A stretch of 64,000 bases of DNA from Oligoflexales bacterium (GTDB lineage: Bacteria > Bdellovibrionota_B > Oligoflexia > Oligoflexales > RGVZ01), in assembly GCA_947494335.1 (NCBI GenBank), contig CANLUT010000002.1, positions 310,001-374,000 of the forward strand. Direction: 5' to 3'. The notes under the pieces were generated by a model that had not been told where the DNA came from, made no database searches, and saw only the letters and a program-made list of their open reading frames with translations. How positions within the stretch are numbered: the stretch's first letter is position 1; every line of letters begins with the position of its first letter. Both the position numbers and the translations under genes were made by a program. Shown piece after piece: positions 18,638 through 31,343 of the stretch.

Positions 18638-20479
18638 TTAGCTGCCCTGACGCGCATCAGATCCATAGCGCAAGAAAGCTGGAAGATCCAGGTCATCCAT
18701 GTCTAGCTCTTGCTGCTCTGGGGATCCCGCAACCGTATTTGTCTCGGCCTTTACTTGACTCATTTTTCCGGCGAGAGCCAAAGCTTCGTCAATCCGGCGA
18801 TCTATCTCGTTGGATACGAGCTCAGGGTTTGGAGCATCGAACTCCCAAGGCGCTTCTGACGCCGCGAGTGTCGCTCCAGCGCGCTCTTCGCGGAGATCAC
18901 TAGACCACATTTCAAATTCTTGCTCAACGGACTCAATATTTGCATCAATCGAAGGCGAGGTTATATCGTCTGCAAAAACAAGCTCAGCAACGGTCTTGGT
19001 TGGTGGCGTTACAGGCGCGGAAGGAGCAAACACTGGTGTCCCAGGGGCCTCTGATCGTGAAATTTCAAGTTCAGCCAGCTCGTCTGATACGTCTGGATGG
19101 CTAATGCCCTGTTCCTCTAAAGTCCACTGCGCAAGAGCGGCAGCTTCCAAGGCAGCGTCGATGGGTTTTGCCGCGATTTCATTAGGAGTTTCGATTGCTG
19201 GAACTACTGGAGCACTGACCACAGAAGCTTGTGGGGTGATGTGGGCTGGTCGCTGAATGGGCGAAACATCGACACGCGCCGTTTGCACTGGAGCAACAAC
19301 TTGCGGCGCAATAGCCTCTTGAGTCACTGCCGCAGGTGGCGGCGTCAAGATTGAGCGAGGAACAGTCACTTGGGGCGGCGCAGCCTTCGGTGTGACAATT
19401 GACGGTGACGTAAGCCGAGGTGGGCTTACAAGTCTCTGTGGAACTGGTGTGGTGTGTCCTGTTACTCGCGGTGAGCTGGAGGAGGCAAGACTTCTAGTGG
19501 TTAGGCCTGCGCTATCATCAACAGGCAATCCCTCTTCAACAGGAAACCCTGTTGCAATAACTGTAATTCGAATTTCGTCACCCAACGTTTCATCTATGAC
19601 GGCTCCAAATATGATATTTGCGTCTTCATGGGCCGCTTCCTGGATGACCATACAAGCGTTATTTACCTCCATGATAGAAACGTTTGTCCCCGCCGTGATG
19701 TTGATCAGGATGCCGGTGGCGCCCTCAATATCTACATCCTCAAGAAGGGGTGACGATATAGCCTGCTTTGCTGCTGACAGGGCCCTCTCAGTGCCAGAGC
19801 CGTAACCGATACCCATAAGGGCGTGACCCATGCTACTCATCACTGTTTTAACGTCTGCAAAATCGACGTTAATTAAGCCAGGAGTATTGATAATGTCACT
19901 AATGCCGCGAACCGCATTTACCAGAACATTGTCAGCGAGTTTAAAGGCGTCGAGCATGCTTAAGTCGGGAGTTGCTACCTGAAGAAGTCTCTGGTTTGGA
20001 ATTGTAATCAGCGTGTCGACACACTCGCGAAGTCTAGCAACGCCTTGCTCAGCATGCTTGCGTCGTCTTTTTCCTTCGAAAGCAAAAGGTTTTGTTACGA
20101 CGGCAACCGTTAAGGCGCCGAGCTCTCTAGCGATTTGAGCGACAACAGCTGCAGCTCCGGTTCCTGTGCCGCCACCCATGCCAGCTGTGATAAAAACCAT
20201 GTCGGCATCACTTAAATAATCTTGCAGTTCCATGCGGTCTTCCAGGGCGGCGTCACGTCCGATATCTGGATCTGCACCGGCTCCAAGGCCCTTTGTCAGG
20301 TCTTTACCTAGTTGAATCTTATGTGGAGCAAGAGATGCCTTGAGCGCCTGAGCGTCAGTATTTGCAACGATAAAGTCAACGCCTTCAAGACCAGAGCGAA
20401 TCATTGTGTTGACGGCGTTACCGCCACCTCCGCCGACGCCAATTACCTTTATTTTTGCTCCAAAAGCGTTGAATGACAT
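18638..20479 (-). CDS. ftsZ: cell division protein FtsZ with unusually long linker
   Basis: FtsZ is the tubulin-like GTPase that forms the division ring. The GTPase motif GGGTGTG lies at residues 102-108; [19 protein letters not shown] and ITIPNQRLL are also typical. The GTPase core ends around residue 320. Then comes a linker of about 270 residues, rich in Pro, Ala, Val, Ser and Thr, followed by the conserved C-terminal peptide [10 protein letters not shown] (residues 596-605) that binds FtsA or membrane partners. At 613 residues it is far above the usual 380-400; long linkers occur in other alphaproteobacterial and deltaproteobacterial FtsZ proteins. GGAGG precedes the ATG. It is last in the dcw cluster and has its own promoter. 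Confidence 0.97.
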
Positions 20480-20569
20480 GGTCAGCCTCCTTGCAGACGT
20501 TAATCTCTAAGTGGTCCTAGGATTAACAACCGTCCGATTAGTAAACAGATAAAACAAAATATAAGTAAA

Positions 20570-20599
20570 ATTATAAGGACTGCTGAAACAGCGTGTCAA
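20570..20599 (-). promoter_or_regulatory. consensus sigma-70 promoter for ftsZ
   Basis: On the minus strand TTGACA (20599-20594) and TATAAT (20575-20570) are both perfect, with an 18-bp spacer, about 90 bp before the ftsZ start. A strong dedicated promoter lets FtsZ be made in excess of FtsA and FtsQ, whose genes lie upstream without a comparable promoter in this gap. Confidence 0.8.
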
Positions 20600-20633
20600 C
20601 TTTTTGACTGTAAATGATTACTTTTAAAAAAGC

Positions 20634-21812
20634 TTATCTCGACAACTCAGACAGCCATGTCCACAAAGGTCTCAGTTTCGCAAGCGGACCCGATTCGCGT
20701 TCAAATCGTCGAACCGCCTCTTCCTCGTTTCTGAATCTCGCGTGAGCAAGAATTGCAAGCCAGCTTGAGTCAATACGGGTGGAGTTCGTCGTAACCTTCA
20801 TATCCAGAAAGGCCGCGGCCGATTTATTTGAAAGATTGCAGATAAAAGGAGATGAAACGCCGATCGCTTTCTCTGCAAAGCTCGAGAAACCAGTAAGCTG
20901 GGAGCCGCCTCCGCAGAACATAAGTCCACCATCAAGTGCTTTCGCGTAAATGGCAAAATGTTTTAGGCTAAGAGCGAAAAGCTCCGCGACTCGCGGACGA
21001 ATGAACTTTGAAAAATTTGAACTGCCGCCCTCCAGAGAGACCCCCACCTGCCTCTTGGTTAACTCTGCCTCGGCGGCCTCAACACCAAGACCGACGGCAA
21101 GGTCCTTGGTAATGTGGTGACTTCCAGCTCCGACAGAGAAAACTTGTTGCGCCGACCCACCGATAATCATCACGCCAGATGTAGTGCTGTGCCCGACGTC
21201 AATCAAAACAGCGTTTTCAATCCCAGGGCGCAGCGCGAAGACAGCCCGAAACAGTCCAAAAAAACCTGATCGGAATTCTGAGACTTCAAGACCAACAGAG
21301 TTCATACAGGAAATAATATCTGCCAGTAGGGTTTTCGGGTGAGTCGCCAGTAGAGCTTGAGCTCGGAGATGACGTCCTTGATGTCCAAACGATAAGGGGT
21401 CAATGCTCTTTTGATCAAGCCAAGCCTGAGTTAAAAGAACGTCAACAACTTCGTCAAGCTCGCTTGTACAGGAGTCAATAGCGGCGTCATGCAAGCTTTG
21501 ATAGTCCGTAGACCTATAGTGTCCGCTACAACGGTGTTCTATAGTCCTTCGGGTGATGCGTGTGTGGAGCGTGGGCACAGAAACGATGACGCGCAGGCCA
21601 TCCCCTGAGATATCAGCGGATTTCAAAAGCTGGCCGATCGACGCAGAAAAAGAGGATAGATCTGTTATTTTTCCTTTGGCTAAACCAAGACAAGGCGCCT
21701 CATAGGCCGACACTTCTAACTCGTCACTCTTCGTGACGAGCATGCGCAGCGTCCCGTGCCCGATGTCGATAAAGGCCAAGCGCTTGTCTTTTCTTGAAAG
21801 CCGGCCTGTCAT
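20634..21812 (-). CDS. ftsA: cell division protein FtsA
   Basis: FtsA is an actin-like ATPase that anchors FtsZ to the membrane. The 392-residue product has phosphate-1 motif FIDIGHGTLRMLV (residues 13-25), phosphate-2 LIDVGHSTTSGVMI, and the adenosine motif LMFCGGGSQLTGF. The SHS2/1C domain lies between. The C-terminus PLAKLRPLWTWLSELSR is an amphipathic helix, the membrane-targeting sequence of FtsA. The identity is supported by the ATGA overlap with ftsQ and by ftsZ downstream. Overall similarity to model FtsA looks low, and the phosphate-1 loop has His-Gly in place of the common Gly-Ser/Thr, so the protein is divergent. Confidence 0.9.
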   Translation of the reverse strand: MTGRLSRKDKRLAFIDIGHGTLRMLVTKSDELEVSAYEAPCLGLAKGKITDLSSFSASIGQLLKSADISGDGLRVIVSVPTLHTRITRRTIEHRCSGHYRSTDYQSLHDAAIDSCTSELDEVVDVLLTQAWLDQKSIDPLSFGHQGRHLRAQALLATHPKTLLADIISCMNSVGLEVSEFRSGFFGLFRAVFALRPGIENAVLIDVGHSTTSGVMIIGGSAQQVFSVGAGSHHITKDLAVGLGVEAAEAELTKRQVGVSLEGGSSNFSKFIRPRVAELFALSLKHFAIYAKALDGGLMFCGGGSQLTGFSSFAEKAIGVSSPFICNLSNKSAAAFLDMKVTTNSTRIDSSWLAILAHARFRNEEEAVRRFERESGPLAKLRPLWTWLSELSR

Positions 21813-22723
21813 AGCTTTTTTTCCTTTATAAAGGCTTTGCCTTCATAGTCGAGCTCGATGCGCGCGGCTACCGAGCCATCCTTCTTTAAGTTTTCAAGAA
21901 TTCCTCGCAGTTTTTTTAACTTGTAATCGAATGGCTTGATTCCCAGAACGACCTCCGTTCCGTCGGAAAGCGTGATGGAGTATCCGCGAAATTTCTGAAA
22001 ATTAATCTGGCGAAGCTCAATCATCGACTCATTTGATTTCTGCCAAACCTCCAAAGCGTCCGCAAGATGCCGGCGCTCATCGGTTGTTGTAAGAACGCGC
22101 ATGGAATCATCGACAGTTGGATTTTGGCGTTGATCGAATACGCCAGTCACGATAACCGCTGGGCTCGCGCCAGATGGGTTTCCAGAGCTGTCTGCGCTGT
22201 CTCCAAAGACAGTGGCATCCAAGGATAAGTATCTGTTCTTTGCTCCTGTATTAACTAAAAGCACGGGGCGCCGAAGCTGGGCCGAGAGTATAACCGTGTC
22301 TGCAACCGGACGAATGACTCTTACGTGGTCAACCATTCCTAAGGATTCAACAAGCTTGGAGAGCTTTTTCAACTCACCAGCGGCACCAGTTTTTAAAGCT
22401 CTGCCAGCAACCTTGTATACTTCCTTTTTGACGTCTTCGGGCAGCGGTAACCCACCGTCAGAAACAACTTCAATTTTCCATTCGGTTGGCGAAAGGACGA
22501 TCAGGGAGTTTACATAGGAAAGAACACCATTAATCTTGTCAAGCACCCTGATTGAAAGTGCGGCGATAACAACAAAAAACAGCACAGCGAGTAAAGACTT
22601 TGCTCCGAGCGACCACGAGAATGAAGTGTCGAGTAGGCCTTTTTTTCCAGCATTTTTAGAAATACGTTGTTTTTCGAGAACCGACCGTTTCTTTCCGCTC
22701 TTACGCTTTAGAAAACGAATCAT
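21809..22723 (-). CDS. ftsQ: cell division protein FtsQ/DivIB-type
   Basis: FtsQ is a bitopic protein that links early and late divisome parts. The 304-residue product has a basic cytoplasmic N-terminus (first 27 residues rich in Lys and Arg), one membrane helix at about residues 38-62 (SLLAVLFFVVIAALSIRVL), and a periplasmic POTRA-like domain (about 85-155) with the beta domain VDHVRVIRPVADTVILSAQLRRPVLLV. Its position between murC and ftsA, with a 4-bp overlap to ftsA, is canonical. The family is poorly conserved; name rests on topology, pattern and place. Missing ddl and murB upstream is discussed under findings. Confidence 0.85.
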   Translation of the reverse strand: MIRFLKRKSGKKRSVLEKQRISKNAGKKGLLDTSFSWSLGAKSLLAVLFFVVIAALSIRVLDKINGVLSYVNSLIVLSPTEWKIEVVSDGGLPLPEDVKKEVYKVAGRALKTGAAGELKKLSKLVESLGMVDHVRVIRPVADTVILSAQLRRPVLLVNTGAKNRYLSLDATVFGDSADSSGNPSGASPAVIVTGVFDQRQNPTVDDSMRVLTTTDERRHLADALEVWQKSNESMIELRQINFQKFRGYSITLSDGTEVVLGIKPFDYKLKKLRGILENLKKDGSVAARIELDYEGKAFIKEKKL

Positions 22724-22747: not shown

Positions 22748-24142
22748 CTAGAGATCCAGGGATAGAAGCCTCGCGACTTTCCATATATCGCCGGCCCCAA
22801 TCGTAACTACGACGTCATTTTTTGGGTCTAACATTGATGTTATCAATTCGGCGCAGCCTTTAAAAGTCGACTCAGAAAAAGTTTCGGCCCCTGAAACTCT
22901 GGCAATGTCTGAGGCGATGCGGGAGGCCTCAAACCCCTTTATGGGCGCCTCGCCAGATGCGTAAACGGGCAGAACTACAACCACAATGTCTCTACCCTTG
23001 AAGGATGCAATAAATTCACCGTAGAGGCTTGAAATTCTAGAAAATCTATGTGGCTGAAAGCAGGCGATAATTCTGCGTCCTGGGAAGGCCTCTTCAAGAC
23101 CCCTTATGCAACTTTGAATTTTCTGGGGATTATGGGCGTAATCATCAAATATAATTGCATTTGAGCTGCATGGATATCGTTGAAGCCTACGCTGGACACC
23201 TGGAAAGTTGCCGAGAGCGGTAGCAAGCATGGAAAGAGAGTGTCCGATAGTAAGTCCTACCCCAATAGCTGCCAACGCGTTGGACGTGTTGTGTTTGCCG
23301 GGCAGTGGCAATGTAAGTTCAGCGCGTTCTTCTTTAAAACTTATGGATGATCTGGCTGACAAGCCTGAGACAAGGTAGTTTTCGGCCCGCAAGTCAGCGT
23401 CGTTCGAAAGCCCATAGGATATTTTGAAGCCCCTGTAGTTAGCGGCCGCTACCGCGGTTGAGCCATGATCAGCAGAGAATACAATGCCTCCTCGAGTACT
23501 GGTCTGGCCTAAATATTTCTTAAAAGCTTCGTTAAGCCTATCAACCGTTTGGTAGTAGTCCATATGATCGGCATCAATATTGGTAACAACGGATACATGT
23601 GTTTCGTAGCGCAAAAAGGACCCGTCCGACTCATCGGCCTCAATGACTAACCAAGGACCAGAGCCGATGCGAACAGAATCTTCTCCTGAAGCAAATGGCG
23701 CTCCGATTATCCATGAGGGTTCATCGCCAATCTGCTTCAAAACATGCGCCACCATTGCAGATGTCGTTGATTTTCCATGGGTACCCGCCACCGAAATGGT
23801 CTGATAAAACCTACAAATAATTGCCAGTAACTCGCTTCGATGTAGGGTGCGTTTATCCGAATTTTTAGCTGCCATAAAAGCAGGATGACTAGGACCAATA
23901 GCGCTAGAATAAACGATCGTTTTTGCCAACAGCTGCCGCTCTTGATCCTCAGGTGTTCCTTCAATATGTAATGGAAAACTAGCCCCAATACCGTCAGCTT
24001 TGGAGTCACTTCCAGAAACTTGAATGCCGAGGCCCGCAACAAACTCGGCCAGAGGCCTCATGCCACTACCCGCAGCACCAATAAAATGAATTGGCGAAAT
24101 AGATGCCAGTTCTACTTTAAGATCGTCGCTTTTGTTCGTCAT
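22748..24142 (-). CDS. murC: UDP-N-acetylmuramate-L-alanine ligase MurC
   Basis: MurC adds L-Ala to UDP-MurNAc, the first of the Mur ligase steps in the cytoplasm. The 464-residue product has the N-terminal UDP motif IHFIGAAGSGMRPLAEF, Walker A AGTHGKSTTSAM at about 119-130, VTNIDADHMDYYQTVD and the third-domain FQPHRFSRISSLYGEF, all of which are MurC-specific. Family members often have GIGGxGM where this one has GAAGSGM. It overlaps ftsW by 26 bp, so the two are translationally linked. murG, which normally lies between ftsW and murC, is absent here. Confidence 0.95.
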   Translation of the reverse strand: MTNKSDDLKVELASISPIHFIGAAGSGMRPLAEFVAGLGIQVSGSDSKADGIGASFPLHIEGTPEDQERQLLAKTIVYSSAIGPSHPAFMAAKNSDKRTLHRSELLAIICRFYQTISVAGTHGKSTTSAMVAHVLKQIGDEPSWIIGAPFASGEDSVRIGSGPWLVIEADESDGSFLRYETHVSVVTNIDADHMDYYQTVDRLNEAFKKYLGQTSTRGGIVFSADHGSTAVAAANYRGFKISYGLSNDADLRAENYLVSGLSARSSISFKEERAELTLPLPGKHNTSNALAAIGVGLTIGHSLSMLATALGNFPGVQRRLQRYPCSSNAIIFDDYAHNPQKIQSCIRGLEEAFPGRRIIACFQPHRFSRISSLYGEFIASFKGRDIVVVVLPVYASGEAPIKGFEASRIASDIARVSGAETFSESTFKGCAELITSMLDPKNDVVVTIGAGDIWKVARLLSLDL

Positions 24143-25271
24143 GATCTTCGACCGTCAGTCGCCAAAGAAGAGCGGTCGCTACGAGACTCATCAGAAGACT
24201 GCTAGCTCCACTGCTGATAAATGGAAGTGGAATTCCCTTTGTAGGTAGCATTCCCATCGCGACGCACATGTTAATTGCCCCCTGAAACCCGATCATGGAG
24301 GTGAGTCCGAACGCAAGGTACATCCTAAACGGGTGGGCCTGCAAGAAGGCAATGCGAAAGCCAAGAAAGCAGTAGTACGCAAACGCAAGGCAAATGAATG
24401 TCACTCCGAGAAATCCAAGCTCCTCTGCCAGCACGGCCAAAATAAAGTCCGTGTGAGCTTCCGGAAGGAAGAAAAGCTTCTGCCGGCTTTCTCCTAGCCC
24501 GGACCCCATAAGCCCGCCATTTTGAAACGCCAAGTAGGACTGAATAATTTGAAATCCGCCGCCTTTGATTTGAGCCCAAGGATCCAAGAAACTTGTGAGC
24601 CGTGCTAGACGGTAAGGTGCAACTAAAATAGCAGCAACGACTGCGGCCAAAGCTGCAAAAAAAGCACCGATAATGAGGCGAAAGTCTAATCCTGCGACAA
24701 AAAGCATTCCAACCATGACGGTGCCCATCAGAACTGTAGAGCCGAAATCTGGCTGTTTCATCATGAATAGAGCAAACAGACCAAACACAAAAACATTCGG
24801 CAAAACGCCCGACTTGAATGAATTTATATTGAAACCTTTTCGCGAAAGATTTTTAGCCAAGAAAAAAACTAGGGCTAATTTGGCACATTCAGATGTTTGA
24901 AATCTAAAGCCGGCCAGTGAGATCCAACGGGCCGCACCGCCGCCGGTCTTATAAACGCCGGGCACAAAAATTAATGCTAACAAAATAAGTGAACCCACTA
25001 GCAAAGGAAGAGTCATGCGCTCTATGAATCGCATAGGCACCTTTGCGATCAAAGCTACTGACGCAAATCCAGCCAGCGCAACGGCTCCTTGCTTGCGAAT
25101 GAAGAAGAACGCATCATTAAACTGCTGTTCGCCCTTCAGAGCGCTGGCCGCATAGACCATGATCAATCCAGACATAACGAGCAAAAGTGTGGTGGCAAAT
25201 AGAAGTTGTCCAGCGCTTTGAAGTTTATTCACTTCGCAAGTGGTCGAGCTTGGTTTGGCTACACTAAGCAT
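24117..25271 (-). CDS. ftsW: lipid II polymerase FtsW (SEDS)
   Basis: FtsW is a SEDS-family membrane glycosyltransferase that polymerises lipid II at the septum with FtsI. The 384-residue product has about ten membrane helices, the SEDS stretch LFFLPEAHTDFILAVLAEELGFLG with its catalytic-type Asp, and the C-terminal GLTSMIGFQGAINMCVAMGM followed by LPTKGIPLPFISSGASSLLM, both typical. The ATG at 25271 is preceded by AAGGAG at 9 bp; a TTG at 25280 abuts the same site and is unlikely. The gene follows murE::murD after 35 bp and overlaps murC. Could be RodA in principle, but the dcw context favours FtsW. Confidence 0.93.
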   Translation of the reverse strand: MLSVAKPSSTTCEVNKLQSAGQLLFATTLLLVMSGLIMVYAASALKGEQQFNDAFFFIRKQGAVALAGFASVALIAKVPMRFIERMTLPLLVGSLILLALIFVPGVYKTGGGAARWISLAGFRFQTSECAKLALVFFLAKNLSRKGFNINSFKSGVLPNVFVFGLFALFMMKQPDFGSTVLMGTVMVGMLFVAGLDFRLIIGAFFAALAAVVAAILVAPYRLARLTSFLDPWAQIKGGGFQIIQSYLAFQNGGLMGSGLGESRQKLFFLPEAHTDFILAVLAEELGFLGVTFICLAFAYYCFLGFRIAFLQAHPFRMYLAFGLTSMIGFQGAINMCVAMGMLPTKGIPLPFISSGASSLLMSLVATALLWRLTVEDHDEQKRRS

Positions 25272-25306
25272 ACTTGGCAACTCCTTCTGCCATTATACAG
25301 AATTCT

Positions 25307-28162
25307 CTACACATGTGCATGGTCTGCAACCATTTGTGTGAAGACAGCGCCGCGATGCTCGAAGTTTCTAAACTCGTCAAAACTCGCACAGCCAGGACTA
25401 AAGATGACGTCAAGATTATGATGTTTCGCCAGATTTAGTGCGCGCAAGACGGCCGGAGCCATTTTGTCGAATGATTCGACCGGAACCCCGCTTGGGGACT
25501 GATCAGCGATGATTCGACCGGAGTGTCCGAATGTAATCAAAGTGGCGATCCTATCCTTAACCTGGCTAAGGTCATCGTATGGCTCACCCTTTCCTTGGCC
25601 GCCCATCATAAGGATGACTGGGCGTTTTGCCATGCTCATGGCGGCCAAGGTGCTCTCTAGATTTGTCGATTTACTGTCGTTTATGATTGATCGCTGACCA
25701 TCTTCAAAAACAACCTCGCATCGATATGGTAATCCCTTGTATTGACGCAAAATTGGCATGAGCTCTTGTGGTGAACTACCCATCACGTGGCTTGCTAGAA
25801 TGACTGATGCGAAAGCATTAAACTGGTTGTGCTCTCCCTGGATTCCTAGGTGGTTAAATTGAAGTTGCCACCCACCAAACTCCAACTGTCCCCCGATGAT
25901 CTCCGCAAATTCGCAACCGGATGGCGCATCGATGATGTGGTTATTTTTGCGGACAATAATTGTACGGCAGCTAGGCCAAAGCGAGCCTTCTCGGAGCGCA
26001 AATTCTGCAACATCTTGCGCCAACACCAGTACGGATGACGGCTCTAACCACTTCGTGAGCCGCCACTTGGCAGCGAAATAGCCGGACATGGTCTTGTGTC
26101 TCGTCAGGTGATCTGCCGAGAAGCTTGTGATCGCAGCCGCGCTTGTTGGCCAGACAGAGCTGCCATCTAGCTGGTAACTTGATAGTTCCACCACGCAGAC
26201 GTGGCGGTCAGGCTTTCTCCAAATAGGAATCGATGATGGTGGTATGCCGATATTTCCGCAGGCATCAGCATCGATTCCTTTACTGCGCAAAATAAATTCA
26301 ATCATAGAGACGGTAGTCGACTTGCCATTTGTTCCAGTGACTCCGATGATTGACCCGCGGTAGCGGTCAAGACCCAAGTCGATTTCAGAAATTATTTCCT
26401 TGTTGTTTTCAGCGGCCGCCACCAGTATCGGATGCTCTCTAGAAAACCCTGGACTGCTAACAACTAGATCCACATTAGACCACGGGATATCTTCAGCCGT
26501 GACAACTGAAGTTAAGTCTTTGAGATATTCAGGAATCTGAATTGGTTTGTCGTCGTAAAGATAAACCTTCTCCTTTGCCTGACTCAGCAATTTTGCCGCA
26601 GCAAAACCGGTGACCCCTGCTCCCACCACAAGCCAACTTTTTGCCTCCTCAAGAACGGTAAGTGCCTCTTTTTGATCGCTGAAAGGAAACGATTTTGAGC
26701 CGATGATCTGATATGGTTCATGCCCTTTTCCAGCGATCAAAATTGGTGTTTGTGCTGTGCCTCCAGTAATGGATTGTCTAATGGCAACCCGGCGGTCGAT
26801 AATCGAGTCGACGTTAGACTTGTCCGCTATACCTGTCAGAATGTCCTCAATGATCGTCGCCGGATCCTCGGATCTTGGGTTGTCGCTAGTGATGGTGACC
26901 TTTGATGATAATCTTGCAGCGATGTCACCCATGATCGGGCGCTTGGTTTTGTCCCGGTCACCCCCGCATCCGAAAACGGTAATGATCGACTTCGGGGTAG
27001 AAGATAGGTTGGCAATACTTTTTTCAAGAGCGTCAGGCGTGTGGGCATAATCTACATAAACGGATGGGCGCCACGGTTTTTGCGACGTACGTACAAGCTC
27101 TAATCGCCCTGGAACTGGTTTTATTTGAGATAGGCCGATTCTTTGACTAATGATCGAAAGCTTTGAATTAAGTAATTGTGTGGCGAGTACCAAGCCAGCT
27201 GAGAAGTTTTCACAAAAGACATCTCCGACCATTGGTAATGTCAAAGTGTTTGACATGTCGTCAGCGCTCTCGACGGCTACGCGCGAAAAACCTTGTTTGA
27301 AATTCGAATCTGAGCGCACGCGAAAGTCCGCGCGTGTTGAATAGTGACCATAAGAAAGATAGCCGTGCGGCAACCGAGTCATTTCCATTTTGGCTGCGGG
27401 CCATTCGAGAACCTGTTGGTGTACTAAAGGGATGCCGCCGTCTTTGAGGTGCCTAGAAAAAAGTAAGAGTTTAGCGCTCAGGTACTCATCCATAGAGGAG
27501 TGAAAATCAAGGTGGTCCTGGCTAAAACTGGTAAAGGCGCAGGCATCGAACATGATTGGCCAAACCTTGCCTTGCGCCAAGCTATGACTGGATACTTCCA
27601 TCACCACGTGCGTTAAGCCTTTTGTGACAAATGACGCAAGCATTGGATACAACACATCTGGGTCTGGTGTTGTGTGCGCACTTTCTATGTGCTCTTCTCC
27701 AGCAAAAAACCCAAGGGTTCCGATGCTTCCTGATTTTATCCCAAGTCCCGTGAAAATTTCTCGAAGCAACCATGTTGTGCTTGTTTTGCCATTTGTTCCT
27801 GTAATCCCAACCATAATGAGTTTATTGGCGGGGTGATCTGCGAAGAAAGATGCCAAAGTGGCCCATGCTCCGCGCGTAGATTTAACCTTTATAATGCTCG
27901 TATTAGCAAGCGGTGGAACGTCGACGGCCCTTTCAACGATCAAAAGGGAGGATTTTTCGGCGACGTCTTGAAGTAGGGCGTGGCCGTCGTTTTTCGCGCC
28001 TTTTATGGCGCAGAAAATATCATCCTTCGTAACACGTCGGGAGTCTGCGGCTACTCCCGAATAAAGCGGTCGCCCGCCCACTTTGGATAGAGTTTCTGGC
28101 TCAAGGCCGACACTATCAAGCTCACGAAAAATTTGATCAAAATCTGCGCGAAGGTTTTTCAT
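25307..28162 (-). CDS. murE-murD: MurE-MurD fusion protein (two Mur ligases in one chain)
   Basis: One 951-codon frame joins two full Mur ligases. The MurE half (about 1-505) adds the third peptide residue: Walker A GTNGKTSTT at 122-130, carbamylated-Lys candidate K231 in YLSAKLLLF, DNPR at 427-430, the signature of meso-diaminopimelate ligases, and GKGHEPYQ. The MurD half (about 510-951) adds D-Glu to UDP-MurNAc-L-Ala: dinucleotide-like LVVGAGVTGFAAA at 511-523, Walker A GTNGKSTT at 610-617, carbamylated-Lys candidate K699, SKSTN at 830-834 and SPGCASFDEFRNFEHRG at 922-938. There is practically no linker. The chain order is reversed with respect to the pathway (MurD acts first). It overlaps ftsI by 26 bp. 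murF and mraY, normally between murE and murD, are missing. Confidence 0.95.
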   Translation of the reverse strand: MKNLRADFDQIFRELDSVGLEPETLSKVGGRPLYSGVAADSRRVTKDDIFCAIKGAKNDGHALLQDVAEKSSLLIVERAVDVPPLANTSIIKVKSTRGAWATLASFFADHPANKLIMVGITGTNGKTSTTWLLREIFTGLGIKSGSIGTLGFFAGEEHIESAHTTPDPDVLYPMLASFVTKGLTHVVMEVSSHSLAQGKVWPIMFDACAFTSFSQDHLDFHSSMDEYLSAKLLLFSRHLKDGGIPLVHQQVLEWPAAKMEMTRLPHGYLSYGHYSTRADFRVRSDSNFKQGFSRVAVESADDMSNTLTLPMVGDVFCENFSAGLVLATQLLNSKLSIISQRIGLSQIKPVPGRLELVRTSQKPWRPSVYVDYAHTPDALEKSIANLSSTPKSIITVFGCGGDRDKTKRPIMGDIAARLSSKVTITSDNPRSEDPATIIEDILTGIADKSNVDSIIDRRVAIRQSITGGTAQTPILIAGKGHEPYQIIGSKSFPFSDQKEALTVLEEAKSWLVVGAGVTGFAAAKLLSQAKEKVYLYDDKPIQIPEYLKDLTSVVTAEDIPWSNVDLVVSSPGFSREHPILVAAAENNKEIISEIDLGLDRYRGSIIGVTGTNGKSTTVSMIEFILRSKGIDADACGNIGIPPSSIPIWRKPDRHVCVVELSSYQLDGSSVWPTSAAAITSFSADHLTRHKTMSGYFAAKWRLTKWLEPSSVLVLAQDVAEFALREGSLWPSCRTIIVRKNNHIIDAPSGCEFAEIIGGQLEFGGWQLQFNHLGIQGEHNQFNAFASVILASHVMGSSPQELMPILRQYKGLPYRCEVVFEDGQRSIINDSKSTNLESTLAAMSMAKRPVILMMGGQGKGEPYDDLSQVKDRIATLITFGHSGRIIADQSPSGVPVESFDKMAPAVLRALNLAKHHNLDVIFSPGCASFDEFRNFEHRGAVFTQMVADHAHV

Positions 28163-30017
28163 TTGACTCGTTAGCTGGCGTTGGCTTTGCAGTGGAGACT
28201 TTCGCTGCCTGTGCCTGCGAGGTTATCTTAGTTGGCTTTTTATCGGGCGCTACATTTAAATATCTTAAACTTCTTTCCGCAATATCTGCGAATACGGGTG
28301 CCGCCCAGAGACCGCCATAAGCCGGCTTTACTCCTGGCTCATCGATGATGACGAAAATTGTCAGGTAAGGATCTGCAACAGGTGCAAATCCAGCAAAGCT
28401 GGCAATACGTTTGTCTGGTGAATAAGCTTTTAAGACTGGATCAACTTTTTCGGCGGTTCCGGTTTTTCCCCCAGTTGTGTAGTCATCAGTGGCAGCCTTC
28501 GAAGCGGTTCCTTTTTTGTCGGTGACGACACGCGCCAGGATGTCTCTCATTTGTCGAGCGTGATCAATTGATAGAACATGGGCACTTGCTTCGGGCGTTG
28601 CAGCGTATACGATTTCACCGCTTGGACTTGTGATGCGATCCACTAAGATTGGACGCATTAGATTGCCCCCATTGGCTAATGCGCCGTATGCCATGGCAAT
28701 TTCGATTCCAGTGGTTGTAAATCCCTGTCCAAATGCCACATTTGCAAATCTAATCGGCTTCCAGGACCCTGGCTTTGCAATGCTTCCTCGCATGGTAGGA
28801 GGGAAAAACTCAGAAATTGAGATGCCACCGGCGAAACCAAATTTTTGTAAAATGTCGTAGAGACCTTGCTTGCCAAGCCGCTCTGCGATTTTAAAAGTAC
28901 ATATATTGCTCGACCTGACGAGCGTTTCGACGGTAGACAGCATCGGTGCCGGGTGGTCGTCCCGGAAAACAACGCCGCCCGCTCGATATACACCATTTTC
29001 GCAATTATGAAGTTCATGGGGGGATGTTTTTTTCATCTCCAGGGCTCCGGCTACGACAAATGGCTTAATGATCGATCCGGGTTCAAAGAGATCTAGGAGC
29101 GCATAATTTCTGGTGTGTTCCGTTTTAGCTTTACTAATCTGATTGGGATCAAATGTCGGATAGTTTGCTAGAGCAAGGATTTTTCCGGTGTGAGGATCGG
29201 TTACAACCGCAAATCCGCTTTTAGCTCGTGCAGCAATTACGCCAGAGGTTAAAGCCTCTTCAGTGATTTCCTGGATGGCGTGATCAATGCTGAGTTGAAT
29301 CGTATGACCGGGAAGATCCGGTGCAGCCATATCACTCGAATATAGAATAGTTCTTCCTCTGGCGTCCTTTGAAGGACTGACAGCGGAGGTTTTACCGGCT
29401 AGGAGTTGCTGGAATTGGCGCTCAATCCCAAGCAAACCCTGATTTTCACTGCCGACAGCTCCGAGTAGATGGGCGGCCGTTGACTGCAGAGGGTAGAGGC
29501 GGGTGGCCTCATTGACAAGATAGAGCCCCTTCAGCTCCAGCCCTTCTACCTTTTGCGCCACGGCAGGGTCGATTTTTCGTTTAAGCCATGCAAAATACGC
29601 GTCCTTGGAAGCGACGTCTTTTATTTTTTCGCGAGGTAGATCAAGAAGTAGTGCCAGTTGTTTCATTTGTTGGGCATTTGGCCTGAACACGCGCGGGTTT
29701 ATGGCGACGGATGGTTTTTTTACACTTATGGCCAGGGGGTGGCTGTTGCGATCTAGAACCGGGCCTCGGTAAGGGGCTAGCTCTAGATGTTGCTCATATT
29801 GACGGGCCGCTATGCGTCGAAGCGCTTCCGCGGATGGGGGAAATAACTGAATAATTGCAGCGCGCCCAATCAAAACACCGAAGATACCAAGTAAAATTAA
29901 CGCAAGAAAAGATGCCCTCGTTATATCAAACCCTCCCGGGGACTCTTTTGTCTCAAAGGATTTTTTGAGGAGTTTTTGCAGTTTTGCCAAACTGTACCTA
30001 GACCCATTTGCAGTCAC
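28137..30017 (-). CDS. ftsI: septal peptidoglycan transpeptidase FtsI (PBP3)
   Basis: FtsI is the class B penicillin-binding protein that crosslinks septal wall. The 626-residue product has a cytoplasmic basic start, one membrane helix at about residues 34-56, a pedestal domain, and the transpeptidase domain with SIIK at 315-318 (active-site Ser; consensus S-x-x-K), SSN at 369-371 and KTGTAEK from 518. After the domain is an Ala/Lys/Pro-rich tail of about 40 residues. ATGA overlap with ftsL and 26-bp overlap with murE show tight coupling. FtsW is its expected polymerase partner. Confidence 0.96.
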   Translation of the reverse strand: MTANGSRYSLAKLQKLLKKSFETKESPGGFDITRASFLALILLGIFGVLIGRAAIIQLFPPSAEALRRIAARQYEQHLELAPYRGPVLDRNSHPLAISVKKPSVAINPRVFRPNAQQMKQLALLLDLPREKIKDVASKDAYFAWLKRKIDPAVAQKVEGLELKGLYLVNEATRLYPLQSTAAHLLGAVGSENQGLLGIERQFQQLLAGKTSAVSPSKDARGRTILYSSDMAAPDLPGHTIQLSIDHAIQEITEEALTSGVIAARAKSGFAVVTDPHTGKILALANYPTFDPNQISKAKTEHTRNYALLDLFEPGSIIKPFVVAGALEMKKTSPHELHNCENGVYRAGGVVFRDDHPAPMLSTVETLVRSSNICTFKIAERLGKQGLYDILQKFGFAGGISISEFFPPTMRGSIAKPGSWKPIRFANVAFGQGFTTTGIEIAMAYGALANGGNLMRPILVDRITSPSGEIVYAATPEASAHVLSIDHARQMRDILARVVTDKKGTASKAATDDYTTGGKTGTAEKVDPVLKAYSPDKRIASFAGFAPVADPYLTIFVIIDEPGVKPAYGGLWAAPVFADIAERSLRYLNVAPDKKPTKITSQAQAAKVSTAKPTPANESNEKPSRRF

Positions 30018-30353: not shown

Positions 30354-31343
30354 TTACTGGAAACGGATAGCCCTTAACTTTGCGCTTCGTGCACGAGGGT
30401 TGTCCCGAATCTCTTGTTCGTTGGGAGCAACTGGAAAAGGTTTAAGGATTGTTCCTTGGCTGGCACTCATTTGGCTGACTTGCGCATCCGTCAGGGGAAG
30501 ATCTCGCGGTATCGACTGTCGTTTGGTTTTTCCGCTCATTTCTAACATGGACTCCTTAACCAGCCGATCTTCAAGGGAATGAAAAGTGATAATTGCGAGA
30601 ATTCCACCGGGGGCCAAAATCTTGGGCGCGTCTTTCAGTAGTTGTTTGAGTTGTCCGAGCTCGTCGTTGACATGGATTCGGAGGGCTTGGAATGTTCGTG
30701 TTGCAGGATGCTTTCGACTAGCCTCCTTCCAAATAACTTTCGACGAAATGAGGTCCGCCAATTGTTTTGTCGTTGTAAGGGGAGACTTTGTTCGTATCTC
30801 GCAAATGAGCCGAGCGATGAAACGAGATTTGGGTTCTTCACCATATTTCCAAATGACATCCGCAATATCTTTTTCGTCGGCATGACGAAGAAATTCGGCT
30901 GCAGTGATTCCACTTGTCTGATCCATGCGCATGTCGAGGGGGCCATCGTGCATAAAGGAAAACCCACGAGAATCCTCATCCAAGTGGTGACTGGACACTC
31001 CAATATCGGCAAGTACACCAGAAACGGCTCCGACTAAATTAAGTTTTTCGGCATGTTTAAGGATGTCACCAAATGTTGCGTGAACAATTTCAAGTGTCCC
31101 TGACGCCAGGGAGCTCGACAATTTTGCTTTTGCGTTATCGATCGCCTTGAGGTCTCTGTCAAAAGCTACCACCCGACCGGTAGGGCCAACTTTTTCTAGC
31201 ATAAGAGACGTGTGACCACCGCCACCAAGCGTGCAGTCAATGAGTGTAGAGCCAAGCATCGGACTCAAGATATCCACCGACTCATGGAATAGAACAGATG
31301 TGTGTTGATAAGTTTTTTGTTCTGAATGGTTTGCCAAAATCAA
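30354..31343 (-). CDS. rsmH: 16S rRNA (cytosine(1402)-N(4))-methyltransferase RsmH
   Basis: RsmH (MraW) methylates C1402 of 16S rRNA at N4. The 329-residue product begins YQHTSVLFHESVDIL, then has the SAM-binding motif LIDCTLGGGGHTSLMLE and the family motifs GVSSHHLDEDSRGFSF and GPLDMRMD. ILAIITFHSLEDRLVKESM and RARSAKLRAIRF at the C-terminus are also typical. Length is normal (about 310). It is the first gene of the dcw cluster here; mraZ, its usual upstream neighbour, is absent, and the 359 bp upstream are non-coding. Confidence 0.97.
   Translation of the reverse strand: MILANHSEQKTYQHTSVLFHESVDILSPMLGSTLIDCTLGGGGHTSLMLEKVGPTGRVVAFDRDLKAIDNAKAKLSSSLASGTLEIVHATFGDILKHAEKLNLVGAVSGVLADIGVSSHHLDEDSRGFSFMHDGPLDMRMDQTSGITAAEFLRHADEKDIADVIWKYGEEPKSRFIARLICEIRTKSPLTTTKQLADLISSKVIWKEASRKHPATRTFQALRIHVNDELGQLKQLLKDAPKILAPGGILAIITFHSLEDRLVKESMLEMSGKTKRQSIPRDLPLTDAQVSQMSASQGTILKPFPVAPNEQEIRDNPRARSAKLRAIRFQ

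Follow-up and report, generated by a model that had tools for sequence, protein, structure and literature searches.

It has long been asked whether the cytoplasmic Mur enzymes form a physical complex, and gene fusions have been cited as genomic evidence for one. The fusions listed so far are MurE-MurF, MurB-MurC, MurG-MurC, MurC-Ddl, MraY-MurG and FtsW-MurG (PMC6420597, PMC4929429, PMC4803751). The closest to the locus described here is MurE-MurF (Bordetella and others; family model NF008896/PRK11929, structure 8f5d), in which two consecutive Mur ligases share one chain with MurE at the N-terminus. The Bordetella enzyme, of these the best studied, is elongated, with active sites ~35 Å apart (PMC6420597). 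MurB-MurC (Verrucomicrobium spinosum), MurC-Ddl (Chlamydia), MurG-MurC, MraY-MurG and FtsW-MurG are likewise lineage-restricted fusions of peptidoglycan-precursor enzymes, although they join other partners and several of them pair enzymes that do not act consecutively. Two Mur-type ligases are also joined in the Mur-alpha/Mur-beta fusion of some methanogenic archaea (PMC11915815), which differs in that its halves are archaeal paralogues belonging to another pathway (pseudomurein).

Here we describe a different pairing, MurE-MurD, encoded in a window of 64,000 nucleotides (the whole stretch of DNA analysed) from an Oligoflexales bacterium. The pairing has not been described before, so far as the open-licence literature shows: those matches that could be judged by title or content were unrelated (e.g. 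dual inhibitors), which agrees with the first-pass annotation, where no such fusion was known. Among the NCBIfam matches shown for the fusion protein there are MurE-MurF and MurF-racemase models and no MurE-MurD model. Our main reading, to which we assign a probability of about 0.88, is that the protein is a bifunctional Mur ligase of single origin, and that the main effect of the fusion would be a fixed 1:1 stoichiometry with both active sites on one chain.

The fusion gene (25307..28162, minus strand) is a single open frame that begins with an ATG at 28162 and reaches its stop at 25307-25309, giving 951 codons without an internal stop and a protein of 951 aa, whose length predicts a mass of ~104 kDa. 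The first-pass annotation had named no strand. The plus strand of the same interval is interrupted by many stops. Two NCBIfam families match the protein at full length, namely murE (TIGR01085; residues 34-504, 485 bits against a cut-off of 257.3) and murD (TIGR01087; residues 511-945, 384.6 bits against a cut-off of 211.95), and Pfam adds two copies each of Mur_ligase_M and Mur_ligase_C. The original claim of MurE and MurD in one polypeptide is therefore borne out by both family scores and the uninterrupted frame. The MurE half covers residues 1-506 (26645..28162, minus strand) and is of the meso-diaminopimelate-adding type; the MurD half covers residues 510-951 (25310..26635, minus strand). 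As a single frame holds both Mur enzymes in full in six genomes of the genus, the locus belongs to the Mur-ligase fusions in the broad sense.

The likeness to MurE-MurF extends beyond the consecutive reactions and the N-terminal position of MurE, as neighbouring dcw genes have been joined in both cases and the N-terminal halves are homologous (475 bits). The C-terminal partner, on the other hand, is MurF there and MurD here, the acting order here is opposite to the chain order, and the linking residues number ~3 in this protein versus ~20 in MurE-MurF (PMC4929429). An identity as MurE-MurF, a first guess from the known fusions, was ruled out. Its second half scores as MurD (385 bits), and the highest-scoring murF stretch of the protein falls at residues 40-137, within the N-terminal half. 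With the whole-protein model NF008896/PRK11929 the score is 475, short of the 1023 required, and the match stops at residue 510. A separate murF is also present elsewhere in the same genome.

Catalytic residues are conserved in both halves. We mapped them onto the E. coli enzymes in the numbering of the literature; all coordinates that follow are on the minus strand. In the MurE half, the ATP loop TGTNGKT occupies residues 121-127 (K126; 27782..27802), K231 (27470..27472) stands at the position of the carbamylated E. coli K224, the DNPR motif for meso-diaminopimelate recognition lies at residues 427-430 (26873..26884), and G478 and E482 are equivalent to E. coli G464 and E468. In the MurD half, the ATP loop TGTNGKST occupies residues 609-616 (K614; 26315..26338), K699 (26066..26068) is the counterpart of the carbamylated K198, and the NDSKSTN motif (residues 828-834; 25661..25681) contains K831 and T833, the counterparts of K319 and T321. 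The residues that bind D-Glu in E. coli MurD (H183, K348, T321, S415 and F422) become H685, K858, T833, S927 and F934.

Conservation of these positions extends to the other fusions. K126, K231, H374, R403, DNPR, G478 and E482 are kept in this protein and in the four other fusions whose MurE half is complete, while K614, N637, E659, H685, K699, R814, K831, T833, K858, S927 and F934 are kept in all six. Both ligases are complete, as the first reading had proposed; both P-loops (K126, K614) and both carbamylated-lysine positions (K231, K699) are there, and the MurE residue set is, as judged from sequence, the meso-diaminopimelate pattern. Some nucleotide-contact positions are unlike E. coli (for example MurD T36 and R37; MurE R192, replaced by Lys), and they depart from E. 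coli in unfused relatives as well. The two halves are 60.8 and 60.7% identical to their counterparts in one fused relative (G002), which points to equal constraint.

The 3.34 Mb genome (97% complete) contains six Mur-ligase central domains: two in the fusion and one each in MurC, MurF, an Mpl-like ligase and a 437-aa frame. MurF (TIGR01143, 352 bits) lies on contig C2 at 429-430.6 kb, ~90 kb from the fusion and outside the window. The 437-aa frame, on contig C3, is taken to be FolC from a weak match and its length. No second MurE or MurD was found in this 97%-complete genome, and as the sole copies of both the fusion must perform both essential steps. Both activities (D-Glu addition and meso-diaminopimelate addition) are thus most likely present: UDP-MurNAc-L-Ala would be extended by D-Glu at the C-terminal MurD half, and the product would then be extended by meso-diaminopimelate at the N-terminal MurE half. 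The Mpl-like ligase, on contig C2 at ~425.5-427.1 kb (L131:10549-12087, minus strand) and also ~90 kb from the fusion, scores 344 bits against a cut-off of 388.7 and suggests murein tripeptide recycling.

To place the fusion among relatives, 58 genomes of the phylum (one class) were searched, six in the genus and 52 outside it. All six genus genomes carry it, the five others being ~40-61% identical to this one (61, 52, 51, 51 and 41%); in one of them (G003) a contig end truncates the MurE half and the junction is still covered. The fusion is fixed in the genus and is not a one-off. It occurs in none of the 52 other phylum genomes, where MurE and MurD matches fall in separate frames, so the caveat that such a fusion might prove common in relatives holds inside the genus and not elsewhere in the phylum. 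A cross-phylum sample consisted of the 80 best-scoring among at least 592 loci, covering many phyla and biased toward close MurE relatives. Both murE and murD were found at 64 of these best 80 loci and at none of them as a one-frame pair, while one MurE-MurF fusion was caught among the same best 80 and served as a positive control. Given how small and biased this sample is, a rare MurE-MurD fusion may exist outside the genus. Two long frames deserve mention in their own right. A Pseudomonadota MAG (L077:7179-10385) has a MurE-MurF fusion in a 1069-aa frame that scores 983 bits with PRK11929, just below the cut-off of 1023, and a Myxococcales MAG (L057:8420-11422) encodes a 1001-aa frame with MurE from residue 521 onward, preceded by 520 residues without a match to any NCBIfam family at 1e-30.

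The gene order of related genomes probably shows how the fusion arose. Between ftsI and ftsW, the order is murE-murF-mraY-murD in G031, G026 and G022, murE-mraY-murD in G024, G010 and G045, and murE-murF-murD in G038; across families, murF and mraY are gone from this interval in differing combinations. In the sister genus, murE and murD are adjacent between ftsI and ftsW in four of four genomes (G006-G009). These genes share operon position, adjacency and domain content with the fusion, but they are two genes with an ATGA overlap (the murD ATG one base ahead of the murE TGA, again in 4/4), which places them in different frames. The fused junction is ~six residues shorter than the summed sister-genus ends (counted by eye from alignments), which fits the loss of a stop and a start through a small deletion or indel. 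In both trees the fused members form one clade (support 93/91 for MurE and 97/96 for MurD). The sister genus adjoins this clade in the MurD tree (92/95); in the MurE tree it is not beside the fused MurE halves, and branches there are long.

We picture a single origin of the fusion in the ancestor of the genus. First the division/cell-wall operon would have shed the two genes that separated murE and murD, namely murF and mraY (either loss could have come first), after which murE and murD would have come to overlap as ATGA, the state kept in the sister genus. A small deletion or indel that took out the stop of murE together with the start of murD would then have given one frame; we infer these mutational steps from the series. 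Because murE precedes murD in the dcw operons examined, the fusion inherited that order. The first-pass annotation was right that the chain order is opposite to the acting order of the two consecutive reactions, yet the reversal carries no functional message, and it cautions against taking domain order as a guide to function.

The junction itself (residues 505-510, the LEEAKSW region; 26633..26650, minus strand) lies where it had been placed at first sight, in window positions 26650-26633, and leads from the C-terminal helix of MurE into strand 1 of MurD. Only ~3 residues separate the two, so the description of the protein as essentially lacking a linker was accurate. Across the six fusions the junction is identical in length, with zero indels in the alignment, whereas loops elsewhere vary. 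Over residues 481-525, differences from G002 amount to 0.20/0.11/0.67 at codon positions 1/2/3, a bias which implies that the junction is translated and selected in this frame. An assembly or frameshift artefact is effectively refuted by this in-frame constraint and by the recurrence of the fusion in six genome assemblies (this one and five others of the genus), and nothing was found in its favour. It is also very improbable that the gene yields two proteins, with translation starting again at the junction to give a free MurD besides the fusion. This genome does have a GTG two codons past W510 with an AGGAGG 14 nt ahead of it, but the spacing is poor, and just past the junction none of the other five fusions has a start preceded by a ribosome-binding site of similar quality: G003 and G005 have zero in-frame starts within the scanned stretch, and the nearest candidate in G002 is an ATG nine codons ahead of the W. 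Such a start is, on these sequences, not conserved among the six fusions. Cleavage of the fusion into two enzymes by proteolysis may occur.

With both sites of a bifunctional enzyme on one chain, any kinetic gain would come from proximity, a benefit that we assume. A stronger proposal is that the linker-less helix-to-strand joint is rigid and holds the two halves in a fixed geometry, such that MurE receives UDP-MurNAc-L-Ala-D-Glu preferentially from MurD, without the intermediate being set free; that the fusion could channel the dipeptide had already been suggested in the first-pass annotation. The consecutive reactions, the missing flexible linker and the same junction length in six genomes speak for such channelling, as does the AlphaFold2 model of the full chain (mean pLDDT 88.3, pTM 0.81). 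In the model, a turn of three residues connects the last MurE helix (496-505) to the first MurD strand (509-513), with pLDDT ~90-95 near the junction, and the pTM suggests a defined arrangement of the halves. The input had 20 rows, of which six were fused, so that six rows inform the MurD half; this fold alignment combined fused and MurE-only rows, a separate alignment was used for the MurD analysis, and a mixed alignment of fused and MurD-only rows was discarded since the MurD rows collapsed onto the MurE half. Against channelling, the top Foldseek match, the MurE-MurF ligase 8f5d (859 columns, rmsd 22.9 A, TM 0.39/0.46), is one in which each half matches the model and the overall arrangement does not. 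Moreover, the ~35 Å between the sites of the elongated Bordetella MurE-MurF (PMC6420597) leaves channelling of the dipeptide possible yet unsupported, and it counts against a proximity benefit too. We regard channelling as unlikely; if true, the protein would be a natural case of channelling between two cytoplasmic steps of peptidoglycan synthesis. A neutral origin accounts for much of what was observed and is a more serious contender, though we hold it to be less probable than not. On this view two genes that overlapped and were translationally coupled would have lost the stop between them, a change that was tolerated and fixed, with no catalytic consequence. The single origin fits this, as does the ATGA overlap of the sister genus, by which the two enzymes were probably made at close to 1:1 even before they were joined. 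The fusions show no reversal or linker growth down to 40% identity, which weighs against neutrality, but a neutral one-way change would persist too. Neutrality is compatible with the bifunctional enzyme that we favour, and the sole difference between the two is whether the fusion brings a benefit.

MurE-MurD adds a pair beyond the listed fusions that bears on the question of a Mur complex. Gene-order stages that start with four genes and end with the fusion are still seen among related genomes, which makes spaced, overlapping and fused versions directly comparable, and the fusion allows one to test whether coupling the two consecutive steps matters.

The neighbourhood is that of a dcw cluster, all on the minus strand. 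It starts with rsmH (mraW; 30354..31343; TIGR00006, 332 bits); ftsI (28137..30017) is the upstream neighbour of the fusion gene and overlaps it by 26 nt, and ftsW (24117..25280; TIGR02614, 369 bits) is the downstream neighbour. Then come murC (22748..24142; TIGR01082, 361 bits) and, at 18638..22723, ftsQ, ftsA and ftsZ, which make up the rest of the cluster (NCBIfam/Pfam matches). The MurG gene lies on contig C4, and no mraY was found in the dcw interval in any of the ten family genomes examined. The best MraY candidate of this genome (G000 contig C1:1018854-1019699; L152) sits outside the dcw cluster and is divergent, with 123-129 bits against a cut-off of 192 and the motifs NATNCTDGVDGLSG and PLHDHVRKN. 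In G038 (contig C368; L143:8158-11139), murE and murF share a frame with one TAG stop between the open stretches, so by its sequence that locus is a single step from a MurE-MurF fusion. Within the cluster of this window, FtsQ (21809-22723) is hardly recognisable at 25.6 bits, FtsA (20634-21812) is divergent, at 85 bits where the cut-off is 176, and FtsZ (18638-20479), at 613 aa, matches its family over residues 7-320 and carries a C-terminal extension of ~290 residues.
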